A stretch of 64,000 nucleotides of DNA. Source: Acinetobacter rudis. GTDB taxonomy: Bacteria > Pseudomonadota > Gammaproteobacteria > Pseudomonadales > Moraxellaceae. How positions within the stretch are numbered: position 1 is the stretch's first letter; every line of letters starts with the position of its first letter. A model generated the notes under the pieces. It ran no database searches, was not told the origin of the DNA, and worked only from the letters and a program-made list of their open reading frames with translations. Below are positions 9,288 through 15,252 of this stretch, in pieces. The position numbers and the translations under genes were made by a program. The stretch covers positions 1 through 64,000 of the forward strand of contig NZ_JAVIDR010000002.1 in assembly GCF_031157835.1 (NCBI RefSeq). The letters are read 5' to 3'.

Positions 9288-9337
9288 CAACCTTGCCAAG
9301 GTTGGGGTCGGGAGTTCGAGTCTCCTTTCCCGCTCCA
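9288..9337 (+). other. Prophage attachment site: 3' part of tRNA-Gly(GCC)
   Basis: The 50 nt comprise a full anticodon arm (CAACC-TTGCCAA-GGTTG, anticodon GCC), variable loop, T-arm (GGGAG-TTCGAGT-CTCCT), the 3' acceptor strand TTCCCGC, a T and CCA. The 5' half (acceptor strand and D-arm) is missing, and AT-rich phage sequence stands in its place. This is the classic duplicate core left at the distal end of an element integrated in a tRNA 3' end. The intact tRNA should lie at the other end of the prophage, outside the window. Confidence 0.8.
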
Positions 9338-9348
9338 GATTCAAGAAA

Positions 9349-9377
9349 AGCCTCAAGTGAAAACTTGAGGCTTTTTT
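9349..9377 (+). terminator. Terminator behind the tRNA-Gly fragment
   Basis: A perfect 10-bp stem (AGCCTCAAGT/ACTTGAGGCT) with GAAA loop, followed by TTTTT. It starts 12 nt after the tRNA CCA and is probably the original tRNA-Gly terminator left on the distal side of the integration. Confidence 0.75.
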
Positions 9378-9394
9378 ATTTCATATTTCGCATT

Positions 9395-9496: not shown

Positions 9497-9534
9497 ATGC
9501 CACCTCTCCAACATCAACGTATTCATCTAAAAAT

Positions 9535-9709
9535 AGCGCCGTGCTTCTCCTGACACTCATTGTATTTAATAATAGTGTCAAGTAACCAAAGCATTAAATC
9601 GCTACCCTACCCTGATTCTACTTGTTGTAGATTAAGATAAGGAATATTTTTAAAGTAAACATTTTTACTTTGGAGAAAACGGACATTTCTATTTTGGACT
9701 TACAACTTA
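9535..9709. repeat. Repeat L, copy 1, abutting pdif site 1
   Basis: This block is clearly similar to 13540-13713. The last 45 bases are nearly identical in both and contain two 20-bp sub-repeats of the form CGGAyATTTyTAyTTTGGAs, 24 bp apart. Both copies end 5-7 bp before the XerC half of a pdif-like site. The layout resembles the end of an IS that targets such sites (IS1202-group elements such as ISAba32 and ISAjo2 are known to do this), but no transposase gene is present. Confidence 0.55.
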
Positions 9710-9737
9710 ATTTCGCATAAGGCGTATTATGTTAATT
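9710..9737 (+). other. pdif-like XerC/XerD site 1
   Basis: ATTTCGCATAA - GGCGTA - TTATGTTAATT: an 11-bp XerC half, 6-bp spacer and 11-bp XerD half. This is as close to the Acinetobacter pdif pattern (ATTTCGTATAA-N6-TTATGTTAAAT) as I can judge by eye. XerC side is on the left. It faces site 2 in inverted orientation across a one-gene cassette. Confidence 0.8.
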
Positions 9738-9757
9738 TTAGAATTTCTAACGAGAAA

Positions 9758-10051
9758 ATGAAAAAATACGTTAAGTTATCACCAGAATTTATGTGTTATC
9801 CCATTTGGATGGAAGAAGGCAATATTTTTCTACCCATAAATCATTATGAATTAAATATTTCCACTGAATTAAAACAAAAAATCGAAGCATGGGATAATCA
9901 ATATCAATCCATTTATGTAGATGATGACCCTTCTGATTCAGAATTTGAAACAGCAATAGATGAAAAAAAATTTATTGAAATAGGACATGAAATAAAAAAA
10001 GCATTACAGCTAGAGTTAGGAAGTAACTACGAGGTGTTTTATCAACCTTAA
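9758..10051 (+). CDS. Unknown acidic protein, cargo of pdif cassette 1
   Basis: A 97-residue acidic protein (MKKYVKLSPEFMCYPIWMEE) with a D/E-rich centre (YVDDDPSDSEFETAIDE). No membrane segment. It is the only gene between two inverted XerC/XerD sites. Size and acidity resemble immunity proteins or antitoxins, but no partner gene lies within the cassette. AT-rich like the Mrr cassette and unlike the nearby lysA/lysR pair. Confidence 0.7.
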   Translation: MKKYVKLSPEFMCYPIWMEEGNIFLPINHYELNISTELKQKIEAWDNQYQSIYVDDDPSDSEFETAIDEKKFIEIGHEIKKALQLELGSNYEVFYQP

Positions 10052-10059
10052 ATTCATCC

Positions 10060-10087
10060 ATTTGACATAAATGGTCTTATGCGAATC
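10060..10087 (-). other. pdif-like XerC/XerD site 2
   Basis: Read on the minus strand: GATTCGCATAA - GACCAT - TTATGTCAAAT. It has one mismatch in the XerC half and one in the XerD half relative to the common form. It starts 9 bp after the stop of the cargo gene and is inverted relative to site 1, as is usual for dif modules. Confidence 0.75.
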
Positions 10088-10110
10088 GCGGATGTTAGAA
10101 CCCATTTAAA

Positions 10111-10280
10111 TTGACTATTTCTTTTTAAATCACATGGTTAAGTTATACCCAAAAGCCTTATTCCTGTGAATAAGGCTTTTATACTCTTCTACATGGTTTC
10201 ATGCCTACTATTTAAACAAAGTTCCATGATTATTATAAAGGCAATATAAACTACTCAGACCATTAAAGCCGCTTAATCAA
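10111..10280. repeat. Repeat R, copy 1, with hairpin
   Basis: Starts 23 bp beyond the XerC end of site 2 and is clearly similar to 14904-15070, which lies just beyond the XerC end of site 4. It contains a perfect 13-bp hairpin (arms 10151-10163 and 10168-10180, loop CTGT) resembling a terminator; the other copy has a degenerate left arm. No ORF is supported. The rest of the gap to 10550 holds only a short ORF remnant. Confidence 0.6.
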
Positions 10281-10408
10281 ACCGTCCAACTTATTGGGGT
10301 CAGATCAAATTTTGGAACTACTCACGAAACTGAAAAATTCGTACTCTAAGATCCATTGATTTTCCGTAAAGTTCTGAATTAACCTTGTTGGAATTGTAAG
10401 TCAAAACC

Positions 10409-10513
10409 TCAAATCCCCTCACCACGAGCGCGTTCAGATAGCCATGTGTGCCAAGGCTGTTCATCTATACGATCAATTAAGTTCACTGCCCTACTGAGGC
10501 GGTTCGGCTTAGA
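10409..10513 (-). pseudogene. C-terminal ORF remnant downstream of lysA
   Basis: An open frame of 34 codons on the minus strand ends in LIDRIDEQPWHTWLSERARG and two more residues before TGA. The composition looks protein-like, and the GC-richer base use resembles lysA rather than the AT-rich flanks. No start is present and a stop lies directly upstream. It is probably the tail of a gene that travelled with lysA and was truncated. Family not identified. Confidence 0.35.
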
Positions 10514-10550
10514 TCAGGGATCACTTAAGTTAATAATTTGTCTAATCAGC

Positions 10551-11801
10551 TTACACTGCCTCCAACGCAAGCAGCTCAGCCACCGTCTGCCTTCGTCGAA
10601 TAAGCCGAGGCTCACCATTTTCCATCAACACTTCAGCAATCAGTGGGCGCGCGTTGTAGTTCGATGACATTGAAGCGCCATATGCACCAGTGTCGTGCAA
10701 CACCAGTAGATCCCCCACCTGCGCCTGCGGCAAAGACCGGTGCAACACCACACCACCATCTCCCTGAGTAAATACATCTCCTGACTCACACAAAGGTCCG
10801 GCAACTACCGTATCTAACTGTAGGCCATTAACCGCTGTGCCATTAGAGTGGATCAACTCCATACCGTGGTAGGCACCGTATAGGGCTGGGCGAACCAAAT
10901 CACTAAAGCCGGCATCCACCATCACAAAATGGTTGGTGCCCTGTTGCTTCGTAGCGCGTACCTCAGTGACCAACACACCAGACTCGGCGATTAAATAGCG
11001 ACCTGGTTCTATTTCTAGTTTCACTGGGTGCCCTAGTAGTTGTTCCACGGCATGGCGCGCTGCATTCCATAATGAAAAGTAGTGCGCTATATCAATCGTG
11101 GGCTCACCAAGCTGATAAGGAACGGATAGACCACCGCCCGCGGAGATAGCGTGCAGGTCCAAACCCTGCGCATTCACTACCTCCACCAACTTTAGCATGG
11201 CACCGCACACTTCTTGCAAGTGCGTGTAGTCTACGCCTGAGCCGATGTGCATATGCAGGCCCTGCAAGGCCAAGCTATTGGACTTAATCTTTTCGCAGGC
11301 GCGTATTAGATCGCCATGCCAGATGCCATGTTTGCTATGCTCGCCACCAGTATTTGTTTTCTTGGAATGGCCATGCCCGAAACCTGGATTGATGCGTAAC
11401 CACACTGGGTGCTCTGGGTTGACCGCACCCAATTGGTCCAGCATGTCCATGGAGCCACAATTCACAGGAATATTTAGTTCCACCACGCGCGCAAGCGTAG
11501 CACGGTCCAGCAGATCAGCCGTGAATACGATGTCTGCGTGCCCGTTGTGCAAGCCCGGCGTAAAACCACTAGCCAATGCACGTTCAATTTCACCCAAAGA
11601 CACCGAGTCCACCACTACGCCCTGTTGCTTCATGAGACGAAGGATATGTGTATTGGAGTTGGCTTTCTGAGCGAAACGCACTATGTCAAACAACCGCAGA
11701 GCAGCAATCTGACGAGTAATGGTATCGGCATCATAGATCCACAACGGGGTACCGAATTTCTGGGCCAAAGGAGCGATGGTAGTGGGAGTAAAAGGATTCA
11801 T
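10551..11801 (-). CDS. lysA: Diaminopimelate decarboxylase
   Basis: 416 residues of the fold-type III PLP decarboxylase family, making L-lysine from meso-diaminopimelate. The PLP lysine is Lys46 in FAQKANSN. HIGSGVDY, EIEPGRYL and the catalytic-cysteine motif GPLCESGD are all present, so it should be active. It is divergent from a LysR regulator, the arrangement known for E. coli lysA/lysR. GC content is visibly higher than in the surrounding island. An Acinetobacter chromosome would be expected to carry another lysA elsewhere, so this is likely an acquired copy. Its start codon lacks a Shine-Dalgarno (see the leader ORF). Confidence 0.9.
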   Translation of the reverse strand: MNPFTPTTIAPLAQKFGTPLWIYDADTITRQIAALRLFDIVRFAQKANSNTHILRLMKQQGVVVDSVSLGEIERALASGFTPGLHNGHADIVFTADLLDRATLARVVELNIPVNCGSMDMLDQLGAVNPEHPVWLRINPGFGHGHSKKTNTGGEHSKHGIWHGDLIRACEKIKSNSLALQGLHMHIGSGVDYTHLQEVCGAMLKLVEVVNAQGLDLHAISAGGGLSVPYQLGEPTIDIAHYFSLWNAARHAVEQLLGHPVKLEIEPGRYLIAESGVLVTEVRATKQQGTNHFVMVDAGFSDLVRPALYGAYHGMELIHSNGTAVNGLQLDTVVAGPLCESGDVFTQGDGGVVLHRSLPQAQVGDLLVLHDTGAYGASMSSNYNARPLIAEVLMENGEPRLIRRRQTVAELLALEAV

Positions 11802-11841
11802 AGATAGATAATAGTAAGCGTAAAAGGATTCATAAATAGAT
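11788..11841. repeat. 32-bp-period tandem duplication over the lysA start
   Basis: A 22-bp unit (GTAAAAGGATTCATAGATAG plus AT) at 11788-11809 recurs at 11820-11841 with a single mismatch, a period of 32 bp. The unit includes the lysA start codon, so two ATG codons followed by AATCCTTTTAC exist in different frames. Confidence 0.8.
11798..11833 (-). CDS. Leader mini-ORF overlapping the lysA start
   Basis: The outer ATG (11833-11831) is preceded by AAGGGGAT at good spacing and encodes MNPFTLTIIYL followed by TGA. That TGA overlaps the lysA ATG as ATGA. The lysA ATG itself has no Shine-Dalgarno. Translation of lysA therefore probably depends on coupling to this 11-residue ORF, which the 32-bp duplication created. 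Confidence 0.5.
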   Translation of the reverse strand: MNPFTLTIIYL

Positions 11842-11902
11842 GATCCCCTTCATAGTCAATTCAATCAATGCTATTGTTATTGTTTAACTATTCAATATTG
11901 AT

Positions 11903-12811
11903 ATGAACTTAACTCATCGCCAGCTGACAATGTTTCGTGCCATCATGTTGCATGGCAATCTAGGGCGTGCAGCTGATGCGTGTGCGTCAAGCCAGCCCAC
12001 TTTGAGTCGCGAACTGAGTCGTTTGGAGCAGTTACTAGGGTTTAACCTTTTTGACCGAGTTCGGGGCCGATTACGACCTACCGTTCGGGCACTCGCGCTG
12101 ATGCAGGAAGTGGAACGCTCATTTATAGGCTTGGAACAGATCGCAGCACGCGCCAATGAATTGCGCACGCAAGCGACCGGTCGCTTGCGCATTGCGTGTT
12201 TGCCAGCATTGGCCCATGCCTTGGTACCACGTGCACTGGTATATCTCTCACATGCATATCCTGAACTAGGAGTCAGCGTCCATCCCTTAGAGTCACCTTG
12301 GCTGGAACAAGCCATGAGTGAACAACGTTTTGACCTCGGGCTGAGTGAAACTCAAAAAGCACCGGTTGGAGTTGCCTTACAGCCCTTACTGAAAGTGAAT
12401 GAAGTAGCTGTTTTGCCACGTGATCACAGCCTGTGCCGCAAGACGCGACTGCAACCACGCGACTTTACAGGTGCGCGCTTTATTAGCCTCGCGGTTGGCG
12501 ACCCATATCGAACCGCCATTGATAGAATGTTCGAGGACGCTAAAATAAATCGCACAACCCTACTTGAAACTACGAGTGCAGTGGCCGTCTGTGCCATGGT
12601 GCGTCAAGGTTTGGGCGTTGCCATCGTAAACCCGTTCACCGCAATGGAACTCAGTGGACCAGACCTAGTAGTGCGGTCGCTTACCGTTTCCATCGGTTAC
12701 CAAGTGAATATGCTTCTTCCTGAAATCGCAGCTCCACACCCTATGCGGGGTGTTCTCGCAGACACCATTCGCAAAGCCAGTGCCGACTGGGACCACCATT
12801 ACTCGCTATAA
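11903..12811 (+). CDS. lysR: LysR-type activator of lysA
   Basis: 302 residues: an N-terminal winged helix (GNLGRAADACASSQPTLSRE, residues 18-37) and a LysR substrate-binding domain (about 90-290). It is divergent from lysA with about 100 bp between them, where an activator responding to diaminopimelate and lysine would bind, as known for E. coli LysR. It shares the higher GC content of lysA, so the two probably moved together. Assignment as LysR proper rests on the pairing. Confidence 0.8.
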   Translation: MNLTHRQLTMFRAIMLHGNLGRAADACASSQPTLSRELSRLEQLLGFNLFDRVRGRLRPTVRALALMQEVERSFIGLEQIAARANELRTQATGRLRIACLPALAHALVPRALVYLSHAYPELGVSVHPLESPWLEQAMSEQRFDLGLSETQKAPVGVALQPLLKVNEVAVLPRDHSLCRKTRLQPRDFTGARFISLAVGDPYRTAIDRMFEDAKINRTTLLETTSAVAVCAMVRQGLGVAIVNPFTAMELSGPDLVVRSLTVSIGYQVNMLLPEIAAPHPMRGVLADTIRKASADWDHHYSL

Positions 12812-12910
12812 GCTCTATAATTTATCGCTATGATTTGCATGTTCAGACCATGCTGTTAAATTAGCTGGTATTTGGGTAAGGAGACTGTTGAGCTGATGCA
12901 GGTTGCAAAT

Positions 12911-13414
12911 TTAATTGTCACCTTCTTTATTAGAATAATGATGATTAGTAATTGAGTAAATGGCTTGCTGTGAGTCATAACGCATTACATGCCTTTCAAA
13001 ACTAAATCCGCTTCTCTCCAACAACTTCACTGATGATTTATTTTTAGTTTGAGTTTCAGCTATTATTTTTTGAAGCTTCATTTCATTAAATGCACAAGAT
13101 AAAACCAAACTAAGTGCTTCTGTGGCATACCCTTTACCCATGAATTCTGGAAGTAATTCATACGAAACTTCGATATCTAAACCATCATGATGATTATCTA
13201 AAGAGATTGTACCAACAAAATCGTGACTCTCAGCCATCCTTATAGCCCATACAGGCAAATCCCGTAATTTTTGAATATCATCCAAAGCACGTAACTCAGC
13301 TACAGAATCTGATAATGGGCCACCCAAAAACTTTCGGGTTATTGGATTTGTATAAATCCCAACCAAATTAGATACGTCAGCGAATAATAAATCAGTCAAA
13401 TAACATTTTTGCAT
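12911..13414 (-). CDS. GNAT N-acetyltransferase, RimJ/RimL type
   Basis: 167 residues of the GNAT fold. The acetyl-CoA loop reads LLPEFMGKGYATEALSLVLS (about 86-105), followed by NKSSVKLLERSGFSFE, the typical end of the domain. The substrate is unknown; this subgroup acetylates protein N-termini or small amines. AT-rich, unlike the adjacent lysR. Degenerate XerC/XerD-like sequences lie on both sides (12833-12861 and 13443-13469), so it may once have been a cassette of its own. Confidence 0.8.
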   Translation of the reverse strand: MQKCYLTDLLFADVSNLVGIYTNPITRKFLGGPLSDSVAELRALDDIQKLRDLPVWAIRMAESHDFVGTISLDNHHDGLDIEVSYELLPEFMGKGYATEALSLVLSCAFNEMKLQKIIAETQTKNKSSVKLLERSGFSFERHVMRYDSQQAIYSITNHHYSNKEGDN

Positions 13415-13539
13415 ATATCTTTGATATAACCCTATGTTCTAAAGCCTACATAATACACATATCCGCAACCCAGTTGCGATACTGGGTTTTGTACTCATTA
13501 CTCAAGCCCATCCCTTAATCGCTCAATATCAACTACGTG

Positions 13540-13713
13540 CATAGCCCCTTGCTCGACACTCGTTGTATTTAATCACGGTATCAGATGACTAAAGCATTCA
13601 TACACTTCTCCGTCCTGAATCTAATGGCTGTAGATTTGGATGGGGGAGTTTTTTAAAGCGGATATTTTTACTTTGGAGAAAACGGACATTTCTATTTTGG
13701 ACTTACATATAGT
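13540..13713. repeat. Repeat L, copy 2, abutting pdif site 3
   Basis: Second copy of the block at 9535-9709. The final 45 bases before the site are nearly identical, including the doubled 20-bp sub-repeat. The upstream part (beginning near GACACTCGTTGTATTTAAT) is similar but diverged. The stretch between the GNAT gene and this repeat holds a small hairpin (AACCCAG...CTGGGTT, about 13468-13489) and a short segment resembling the far end of repeat R, but no gene. Confidence 0.55.
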
Positions 13714-13741
13714 ATTTCGTATGATACCCATTATGTTAAAC
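13714..13741 (+). other. pdif-like XerC/XerD site 3
   Basis: ATTTCGTATGA - TACCCA - TTATGTTAAAC, with the XerC half on the left. It differs from the usual form by one base in each half. It bounds the Mrr cassette on its left and is inverted relative to site 4. Confidence 0.75.
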
Positions 13742-13783
13742 AGAGTGATTTTATTGGAGAAGTAATTTAATCTCTCTGTTACA

Positions 13784-14851
13784 ATGAGTTAAAGAGATTA
13801 CTTTGATGCAAAAAATATTTGGGGAATCCATATAGATCGATCAGTAGGATTAACACCTATAGAACAAAATTATATAGGGATTGGTTGGTCCGAATTAGGT
13901 GATTTATCTAAATTATTACCAAATAGAGATTCGTTTAAGGCTGCTTTAAAAAACAGTCAACCTAATGCAACAGATGCATCAGTAAGAGCTCAAGCTAGCC
14001 CTATCTTCCGATTTACTCATGAAATGCAAATTGATGATTATATTATTTATCCATCAAAAACAGATCGTATGATTTATGTTGGAGTAATTAAGGGCAACTA
14101 CGAATATCACAGTAATTTAGAAGAGGATGAATATAAGAATAGAAGAAATGTTGAGTGGATTACTCCAAATGGAATTCCTAGAAATAGTTTTAGCCAAGCC
14201 ACATTAAATGAGTTAGGTGCTTTCATTAGTATTTTTGCAATTAAATCTCATACTGCTAATGAAATACTAGGCTCTATTGGGTTATTAAATCCTAATCAAG
14301 AAAATATTGATTTATTACCCAATCTAGAAGAAGAGTCAATTGAGCCCCCTGATGATGAAATTGCGACTAAAGCAATTACTGAAACAACTAAAATTTCTAC
14401 AGAAGATTTCATTATCAGAAAATTACATCAAAATTTAAATGGATACCAATTTGAAGAGTTTGTAGCTCACTTATTAGAATGTATGGGGTATGTGGCAAGA
14501 ATTACTCAAAAATCTGGGGATGGTGGAGTTGATATTATTGCCCATAAAGATATTCTTGGTTTTGAACCGCCAATAATAAAAGTACAGTGTAAAAAAACAT
14601 TAACTTCCAATGGATTACCTGAAATAAATCAACTTCTTGGGACTCTAGGTGATGAGGAATACGCTTTATTTGTTAACCTAGGTAGTTATACTATTCAAGC
14701 TAGGAATAAAGCTACAAATAAATCTAAGTTAAGATTAATTGATGGAAAAGAAATAATTAATTTGATTTATAGATATTACGACAGTTTCAGCCCCCAATAT
14801 AGAGCTTTAATTCCTTTGAAAAAAATATTCATACCTGATTTAGGTGAATAA
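13784..14851 (+). pseudogene. Mrr-type restriction endonuclease with stop at codon 3
   Basis: The frame encodes an N-terminal domain (NIWGIHIDRS, then IGIGWSELGDL and FRFTHEMQIDDYIIYPSK) and a C-terminal Mrr catalytic domain (EEFVAHLLECMGY, SGDGGVDI, IKVQCKK) containing the D...QxK nuclease residues. This architecture is known for type IV-like restriction enzymes that cut modified DNA. ATG 13784 is in frame, but codon 3 is TAA; after it the frame is open to 14851 with no ATG until 14024, which would remove about 80 conserved residues. It is probably inactivated or poorly expressed. It is the only gene in pdif cassette 2. Confidence 0.7.
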
Positions 14852-14871
14852 CATTTATGTAATTTATCTAA

Positions 14872-14899
14872 AATTAACATAATACACCTTACGCGAAAT
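14872..14899 (-). other. pdif-like XerC/XerD site 4
   Basis: Read on the minus strand: ATTTCGCGTAA - GGTGTA - TTATGTTAATT. The spacer and XerD half fit the common Acinetobacter pdif form, with one change in XerC. It lies about 20 bp after the Mrr stop and is inverted relative to site 3. Confidence 0.8.
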
Positions 14900-14903
14900 T
14901 AAG

Positions 14904-15070
14904 TTAACTATTTGTTTTAAATCATATTGTTAAGAAACACCTAAATACCTTACTCCTATGAATAAGGCTTTTTTATCCGTTTATGTGGTTTCACGTCCAC
15001 TATTCAATCAGCACTTCACGCTTATTATAAAGCAGACATGAACTACTCAGGCCATCCCTCGCTCAATCAC
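14904..15070. repeat. Repeat R, copy 2
   Basis: Similar over its length to 10111-10280 and placed at the same side of its pdif-like site. The shared hairpin has a diverged left arm here (14942-14975). The following 15071-15252 holds no gene; a stretch near 15100-15140 resembles 12857-12899, another sign of shuffling. Confidence 0.55.
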
Positions 15071-15252
15071 CAGATATCAATTGTGTGTCCATCATTTAAA
15101 TTAGCTTATTTTTTGGAGATAAAATTGTTGAGCTTACGCCCCCATCATGGTTCAACGTTTGTCATTTAAAATAGAAACAAAAAAAGAAAAGGCAACAAAG
15201 AAACTTTAGAGCTTCAGTCTCTTGAATAAAGGATAACTAAACGAACCAGCTC

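Follow-up and report, generated by a model that had tools for sequence, protein, structure and literature searches.

Introduction

Phage moron slots hold accessory toxin, immunity and defence genes between the lysis cassette and the integrase. On Acinetobacter plasmids, small cargo genes are carried in modules bounded by pdif (plasmid dif) sites, for which the nomenclature of Hall is given in PMC13141974, and dif modules are also described from chromosomes, namely the terC and add modules together with extra dif-like sites in Acinetobacter (PMC6449649) and the dif module island of the strain M10 chromosome (PMC12907356). The word 'prophage' occurs once in PMC6449649, for Proteus, and nowhere in PMC12907356; an OXA-58 module at an XerC/XerD site of a Proteus mirabilis prophage (Girlich 2017) is cited in the former, and in the available portion of PMC13125923 pdif modules on plasmids and prophages are handled separately. 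The present work concerns two such modules, at 9710-10087 and 13714-14899 of a stretch of 64,000 nucleotides of Acinetobacter rudis DNA (assembly GCF_031157835.1, contig NZ_JAVIDR010000002.1, positions 1 to 64,000 of the forward strand), which is called the window throughout. The two cassettes are read here, with a probability of roughly 0.7, as chromosomal D-type dif modules lying in the debris of prophage lysis regions that were formerly docking slots. Compared genomes, contigs and further stretches of DNA are denoted by G, C and L numbers, respectively.

Results

The four pdif sites

Four 28-bp pdif sites of the form XerC-N6-XerD were located within 5.2 kb of the window, with matches at 22, 19, 20 and 21 of the 22 arm positions of a pdif consensus, with which the site table of PMC13141974 is consistent. 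Site 1 (9710-9737, plus strand, C/D; ATTTCGCATAA-GGCGTA-TTATGTTAATT) matched at 22/22 positions, and the same 28 bp were found in G029:C42; site 2 (10060-10087, minus strand, D/C; GATTCGCATAA-GACCAT-TTATGTCAAAT in C-to-D orientation) matched at 19/22, and the equivalent position is occupied in the G029 homologue. Site 3 (13714-13741, plus strand, C/D; ATTTCGTATGA-TACCCA-TTATGTTAAAC) matched at 20/22 and site 4 (14872-14899, minus strand, D/C; ATTTCGCGTAA-GGTGTA-TTATGTTAATT, again in C-to-D orientation) at 21/22, the off-consensus arm bases lying in sites 2, 3 and 4. A score of 18 or more was reached in the whole 64 kb at these four sites only, and in 20 first-order Markov simulations hits of 19+ came to 0.05 and hits of 18+ to 0.20 per 64 kb. 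A looser pattern with up to two mismatches gave 23 matches in the whole genome and 9 for the reversed-pattern control. The four sites and the two inverted pairs claimed in a preliminary description, which was made from the letters of the window, were thus confirmed, the order being C/D, D/C, C/D, D/C. Each cassette consists of two 28-bp XerC-N6-XerD sites inversely oriented around a cargo, and both are D modules, with the XerD arms inside.

The spacers are unlike within each pair (GGCGTA and GACCAT in cassette 1; TACCCA and GGTGTA in cassette 2). The spacers of the outer sites 1 and 4 are one base apart, and these two sites lie within a 39-bp inverted repeat of 95% complementarity; sites 1 and 4 are therefore the pair most likely to recombine today, which would invert 5.1 kb. 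Inversion between sites sharing five of six spacer bases is reported in PMC13141974. Candidates for both recombinases appear to be present in the genome: that for XerD scored above its cut-off (357 bits), and the best match for XerC reached 322 bits against a cut-off of 335 bits that was passed by only 2 of 14 control genomes. The main dif site is presumably C33:69336, with the spacer TGTATA.

Cassette 1 and its recurrence with exact ends

Cassette 1 contains the one gene noted in the preliminary description, which had left it without a name; this gene (cargo 1, 9758..10051, plus strand, 97 aa) can now be called CdiI-like from the match of its product to the solved CdiI structure 7m5f_A (E = 1e-17), and no Pfam or NCBIfam family scored above its cut-off. 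Homologues were found at E 1e-5 in three (G029, G027 and G150) of 174 other genomes. The copy in G029:C42 lies on a 21-kb contig that also has genes for Rep3 and MobA. It has a pdif site on either side at the same 350-bp spacing and is identical to cassette 1 at 333 of 377 positions (88%) in a gap-free alignment whose first base is that of the C/D site and whose end falls inside the D/C site; beyond the sites, identity falls to 9-20 of 50 per 50-bp block. The presence of the sites at homologous cassettes elsewhere had been proposed as a test in the preliminary description, and cassette 1 passes it in this Rep3/MobA contig. For the homologues in G027 (73% identity, one stop) and G150 (29%), 7-8 kb were fetched and contained no site of 18+/22, and a clean module is accordingly seen for one of the three homologues.

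A Pantoea homologue of cargo 1 shares 4 bp with the 3' end of a 10.8-kb hemagglutinin-repeat (CdiA-like) gene and, judged from this arrangement, occupies the CdiI position; homologues in Duffyella and Leptospira plasmids had no hemagglutinin-repeat neighbour within 4-5 kb. Cargo 1 stands alone in the window, and cassette 1 would supply orphan immunity against a contact-dependent growth inhibition (CDI) toxin.

Lysis-gene debris and insertion sequence ends in the flanks

The left flanks of the two cassettes are 78% identical over 153 bp and the right flanks 75% over 157 bp, and no similarity between cargo 1 and cargo 2 was found by BLAST. The outer part of the left flank is the 3' end of a minus-strand Rz1-like spanin (lysis) gene, and its inner ~60 bp are the end of an insertion sequence (IS) of the IS1202 family. 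Relic A (9532..9642, minus strand) showed a DNA match of 69-82% to intact or relic Rz1 genes and was found by a phage Rz1 protein at 2.5e-8, with two stops; relic B (13533..13642, minus strand) is 78% identical to relic A over the joint 153-bp flank. Two 5' fragments of Rz1 lie at 12857..12900 (minus strand, 80% to the 5' half of the intact Rz1 in L048) and 15097..15151 (minus strand, 81% to the 5' half of intact Rz1). The intact Rz1 gene occurs elsewhere in the same genome (L048), after endolysin and Rz genes; Rz and Rz1 follow an endolysin gene in L048 and in the viral contig L257, and the window keeps Rz1 fragments only. The name Rz1 is based on the overlap with Rz and on weak PHROGs spanin matches (1.2e-4 and 6.8e-4), the best match, phrog_2425, having no assigned function.

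The IS1202-family remnant of cassette 1 (9643..9704, plus strand, ISAjo2-type) ends 5 bp and that of cassette 2 (13653..13707, plus strand) 6 bp from the XerC arm, each with a terminal ACA (at 9704 and 13707), and these distances match the rule reported for IS1202-family elements, which insert 5 bp (or 6) outside the XerC arm (PMC10132070). The window segment 9560-10240 matched 577 plasmid records, 576 of them from Acinetobacter; among the 30 matches listed, 29 begin at base 9644, and in pMMCU2 and pGX3-1 the same IS end lies beside a transposase gene of the ISNCY family. A full 1.5-kb IS with transposase and target duplication is not present at either place, ~55-62 bp being left at each, and both pieces are remnants. 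The Rz1-IS junction is the same in both copies and points to one ancestral slot in which the cargo may have been exchanged.

The right flank (copy A, 10106..10263, plus strand; copy B, 14900..15095, plus strand) holds a terminator-like hairpin followed by the 3' end of a second short minus-strand open reading frame (ORF), with which copy B ends and for which no PHROGs match was found. The two window copies and a copy in G082:C127 are 75-79% alike (A to B, 75%; A to G082, 77%; B to G082:C127, 79%), and copy B, site included, is 82% identical to a sequence at C22:116 kb of the same genome; at E 1e-3, copy B matched none of 72,556 plasmids. In G082:C100 (L136) the same left flank and the same type of right flank enclose a different cargo; its second site scored 15/22, and this locus was left out of the flank figures. 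The flanks had at one stage been regarded as one interspersed repeat element, and this was dropped, the left part being Rz1 debris with an IS end. The window modules look decayed and may now be mostly fossil.

Arrays of single accessory genes with interspersed pdif sites were also observed in L137 1985-3382 (G082:C53) and L047 2039-3490 (G000:C22:115-116.5 kb), the genes being parted by recurring 3' ends of Rz1 together with the 3' end of the second short ORF. These arrays have the look of phage morons accreted one after another.

Pdif pairs beside lysis genes of related prophages

Rz1 was searched for in 175 genomes including that of the window, and 87 places were found in 50 genomes, of which 80 were fetched with at most 4 kb upstream and 6 kb downstream of Rz1 and scanned for sites at a threshold of 19+/22. 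Sites of this score numbered 24, at 16 of the 80 places (15 downstream and 9 upstream), and one was obtained with the reversed-pattern control. A pdif site lay 9-27 bp past the Rz1 match at 4/80 places (G043, two in G004, and G099), and a C/D site followed by a D/C site was found within 6 kb downstream of Rz1 at five (G043, G004:C257, G099, G159 and G001); the first site touches the Rz1 terminator in G043, G004 and G099. Just outside the D/C site, G043, G004, G099 and G001 share 77-85% identity over 101-167 bp.

In the 46.8-kb viral contig L257, whose Rz1 is identical to that of G043:C32, the genes for tail proteins, holin, endolysin, Rz and Rz1 are followed by a C/D-like site in contact with the Rz1 terminator, then by two small ORFs, a D/C site, another small ORF and finally an integrase gene. 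In G159:C16 (L319 4350-7298) two tandem IS1202-type transposase genes (73% and 89% identical to that of pGX3-1) and an IS end lie between the Rz1 terminator and the C/D site, a few bases before the site. The window's Rz1-IS-pdif order is seen here in a prophage that keeps endolysin and Rz, and is thereby tied to a prophage with lysis genes; IS1202-type elements also insert beside phage-borne pdif sites.

The cargo between such sites consists of two small ORFs in G043 and a 171-aa ORF in G004. In G099 (L364 4210-6760) it comprises a PAAR-like protein, an unassigned ORF and a TsiV-type immunity protein of a type VI secretion system (2e-57), and the module lies between Rz1 and the integrase of a chromosomal prophage. 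Eight cargos were compared, and no BLAST similarity to one another was found. On a 54-kb metagenome viral contig one site lies beside an endolysin-type gene and another beside a UmuC-type gene. Inverted pdif pairs, which may or may not lie inside the phage proper, were found on four more viral contigs (L389, L234, L388 and L390). In a consensus scan of IMG/VR, seven stretches with two or more 19+ sites were found among the matches listed (120 stretches), which is not a frequency. Several names were given by eye, with no family search: PAAR, LexA-like, UmuC (G004, G162), P2-like (L234, L389), endolysin (L391), ParA-like, XRE, methylase and endolysin (L390), DusA and the mdc genes.

Three further observations concern these records. 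In G043:C32 (L308 7020-8075) the integrase adjoins a gene that was named dusA-like by eye, dusA being a known attachment gene for prophages and islands. The 39-kb contig L390 (IMGVR_UViG_2565957075_000005) has an inverted pdif pair around regulator-like and methylase-like genes, together with ParA-, replication- and endolysin-like genes, and is possibly a phage-plasmid. Records named 'Acinetobacter phage MD-2021a' that match the right site were not counted in favour of phages: the one that was looked at has four annotated genes, which encode a sulphate transporter, a helicase, an uncharacterised protein and a Tn21 resolvase.

Cassette 2

The restriction endonuclease gene previously assigned to the second pair (cargo 2, 13793..14851, plus strand) was found to be of the Mrr type (Mrr_cat, 7e-25) and of the candidate defence family PDC-S02 (PADLOC, 1.2e-126; residues 8-349 of the open frame against profile positions 4-330 of 334), and an ordinary start codon is missing. 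A stop at 13790 precedes the open frame, which lacks ATG, GTG and TTG codons up to 14024 (~77 codons), the ATG at 13806 lying in a different frame; the relative in G162 (DNA 73%) has an ordinary ATG start. Cargo 2 is probably damaged at its start, and its expression is doubtful because of the lack of an ordinary start codon. Cassette 2 would have supplied a candidate Mrr-type defence nuclease. Homologues of cargo 2 amounted to one protein match (29% identity) among 174 other genomes and to 38 plasmid records, none of which reached 60%. The G162 relative, on a 3.6-kb contig that ends inside it, adjoins genes resembling phage UmuC and LexA types.

Genes between the cassettes

A pair of genes for a lysA-like pyridoxal phosphate-dependent decarboxylase (minus strand) and a LysR protein (plus strand) occupies 10526..12811 and is 90% identical to sequences in G029:C39 and G043:C45 (copies at L141 4387-6943 and L142 3516-6067). 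Its GC content is 51%, against 29-41% in ten other stretches measured. On the Rep3/MobA contig G029:C39 the pair forms a C/D...D/C module, and in the window it has no pdif site close by. In G043:C45 the pair was observed between two sites that agree in orientation and in spacer (GGTGTA), and direct excision would be possible from such an arrangement. A GNAT acetyltransferase gene (12911..13414, minus strand; Acetyltransf_3, 3.4e-22) lies between the phage relics and would be another moron of the same Rz1 debris; an 87% DNA copy of it was observed in G082:C72, again next to Rz1 debris, in a stretch free of pdif sites of 18+.

Chromosomal setting

The window forms the first 64 kb of a 412-kb contig in a 3.57-Mb draft assembly of 56 contigs. 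The segment 17628-18990, which holds GntR and the gene after it, shows 80% identity to part of a 3.85-Mb contig of G174, in which the GntR homology comes after three tRNA-Gly genes, the last of which ends 317 bp ahead. In the window, 8.3 kb separate the GntR homology from a tRNA-Gly remnant (3' part, 9289..9341, plus strand), which is a probable prophage attachment scar where the chromosome resumes; window 9289-9380 showed an 88% match to the end of the G174 tRNA-Gly(gcc) gene. Judged by this synteny the contig is chromosomal, as had been proposed, and it also bears tRNA-Met and what are taken to be mdc-type genes, named by eye from their translations. The cassettes had been placed among chromosomal genes; the contig is of that kind, and their immediate neighbours are mostly phage-lysis and IS debris with acquired-looking genes.

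Cassette-free alleles had also been proposed as a check. G174 represents an allele without the whole 8-kb island, and an allele missing just one cassette was not found among the relatives compared. At the GntR locus of G082, G036, G041, G115, G124, G104 and G137 there was no island sequence alongside and no matching tRNA, and these seven loci are no demonstration of a clean junction.

Discussion

In the reading preferred here, the two cassettes occupy former docking slots in prophage lysis regions that have since decayed. Host XerC/XerD would recombine a pdif site of the resident slot with a pdif site of like spacer on an incoming Rep3 plasmid or phage to give a cointegrate, and resolution of the cointegrate at a different pdif site would leave a different module between unchanged flanks.

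Several results weigh against this reading. No site of 19+ was found at 64 of the 80 Rz1 places in the stretch fetched, and the pair in G001 adjoins a broken Rz1 (four stops) with host-type genes upstream, and is a relic. The right flank in the window is not significantly similar (BLAST, E 1e-3) to the canonical right flank of the prophages, and the Rz1 fragments of the window face the opposite way to the G043-type slot; on this comparison the window loci are modules among lysis relics and not demonstrated copies of such a slot. The canonical right flank also weakly matches nine plasmids (71-83% over ~74-105 bp) and so is not strictly phage-specific; strict phage specificity had been assumed at one stage and was dropped. 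A pdif-bounded homologue of cassette 2 was not found, the relatives in G053 and G162 having no 18+/22 site, so that the cassette identity claimed for both pairs is borne out for cassette 1, which recurs with exact ends, and lacks this counterpart for cassette 2 among the homologues found. Finally, plasmid cassettes of A. baumannii form no excisable modules in the assay of PMC11705084, and this makes the excision of a single module unlikely.

The rival that survives best, although it is judged rather improbable, is that the modules moved from a plasmid to a chromosome which already held dead prophage debris, the phage flanks being incidental and the phages having carried nothing. Plasmids commonly carry IS1202-family ends such as those beside both C/D sites, homologues of cassette 1 and of the lysA-LysR pair are present on Rep3/MobA contigs, and chromosomal dif modules are presented without a phage link in the portions available of PMC6449649 and PMC12907356. 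Against it stand the pdif pairs between Rz1 and integrase in prophages that have tail and lysis genes (G043/L257 and G099), the sites near endolysin-type and UmuC genes on the 54-kb viral contig, and the right flank that is common to both window copies and G082:C127.

Far less probable is a composite repeat, for example a transposon-like one, in which flank, cargo and flank form a unit and the pdif sites are passengers. Joint repetition of the left and right flanks is indeed seen, twice in the window and partly in G082; such a unit is contradicted, for cassette 1, by the copy in G029:C42, which keeps the pdif sites and none of the flanks, and the repeat has no transposase gene besides the IS1202-family end and encloses unrelated cargo in its copies. 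Slighter still is the chance that misassembly put plasmid sequence into a chromosomal contig: the assembly is a draft of 56 contigs, with similar sites on separate, shorter contigs of the same genome, but the repeats flanking the cassettes are divergent (75-78%) and should not collapse in assembly, and no plasmid rep or mob gene was noticed by eye in the ORF list for 9700 to 15000. An origin of the sites as dif-like sequences arising by chance can be dismissed. Matches of 14-16/22 are abundant by chance and the region is AT-rich, but four sites of 19+/22 lie in 5.2 kb where 0.05 are expected per 64 kb, and the exact boundaries of the cassette 1 homology refute such an origin.

A wider proposition can be put forward tentatively, at odds a little short of even: temperate Acinetobacter phages may keep a standing Xer docking slot in which host XerCD swaps cassettes with plasmids. 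In such a slot one pdif site would be fused to the last lysis gene at its terminator and the second would lie towards the integrase, the cargo would consist of anti-competitor and defence cassettes, and chromosomal dif modules like those of the window would be leftovers after decay of the prophage. How dif modules travel between Acinetobacter strains is unsettled, no excision having been obtained in the assay of PMC11705084 and pairs of modules and cointegrates being able to rearrange according to PMC13141974. If the proposition holds, phages would be a second, packaged vehicle, by which a module could be packaged and injected without plasmid transfer, and this would account for chromosomal modules far from any plasmid. 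It also suggests genes for interbacterial conflict and phage defence as natural cargo beside the known resistance genes.

The kind of element is already known. The preliminary description called such modules best known from Acinetobacter plasmids; dif modules on chromosomes had already been published (PMC6449649, PMC12907356). What is new is the recurrent association with prophage lysis genes and the conflict-gene cargo. Phage-borne dif-module slots were not found described in the titles and opening abstracts of the open-licence literature, among the matches listed. The window modules resemble the D modules of Acinetobacter plasmids (PMC13141974) in the inverted C/D...D/C pair with XerD inside, the small cargo and, for cassette 1, the exact boundaries, and plasmid pdif modules in general in the variable spacers and in the IS1202-family element 5-6 bp outside the XerC arm (PMC10132070). 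They differ from plasmid modules in being chromosomal and flanked by relics of phage lysis genes and, in related prophages, in being sited beside the Rz1 terminator. With the chromosomal cases of PMC6449649 and PMC12907356 they share extra chromosomal dif-like sites and pdif-like modules; unlike them, the M10 modules form, as described in PMC12907356, a chain of nine in one island that carries most of the chromosomal resistance genes. The OXA-58 case, as cited in PMC6449649, is a single insertion of a resistance module in another genus, and not a recurring slot with varied conflict-gene cargo.

The likeness to phage moron slots lies in accessory cargo of such types between lysis genes and integrase. 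The difference is that here the cargo is bounded by Xer sites, so that its exchange would be possible without phage recombination functions.

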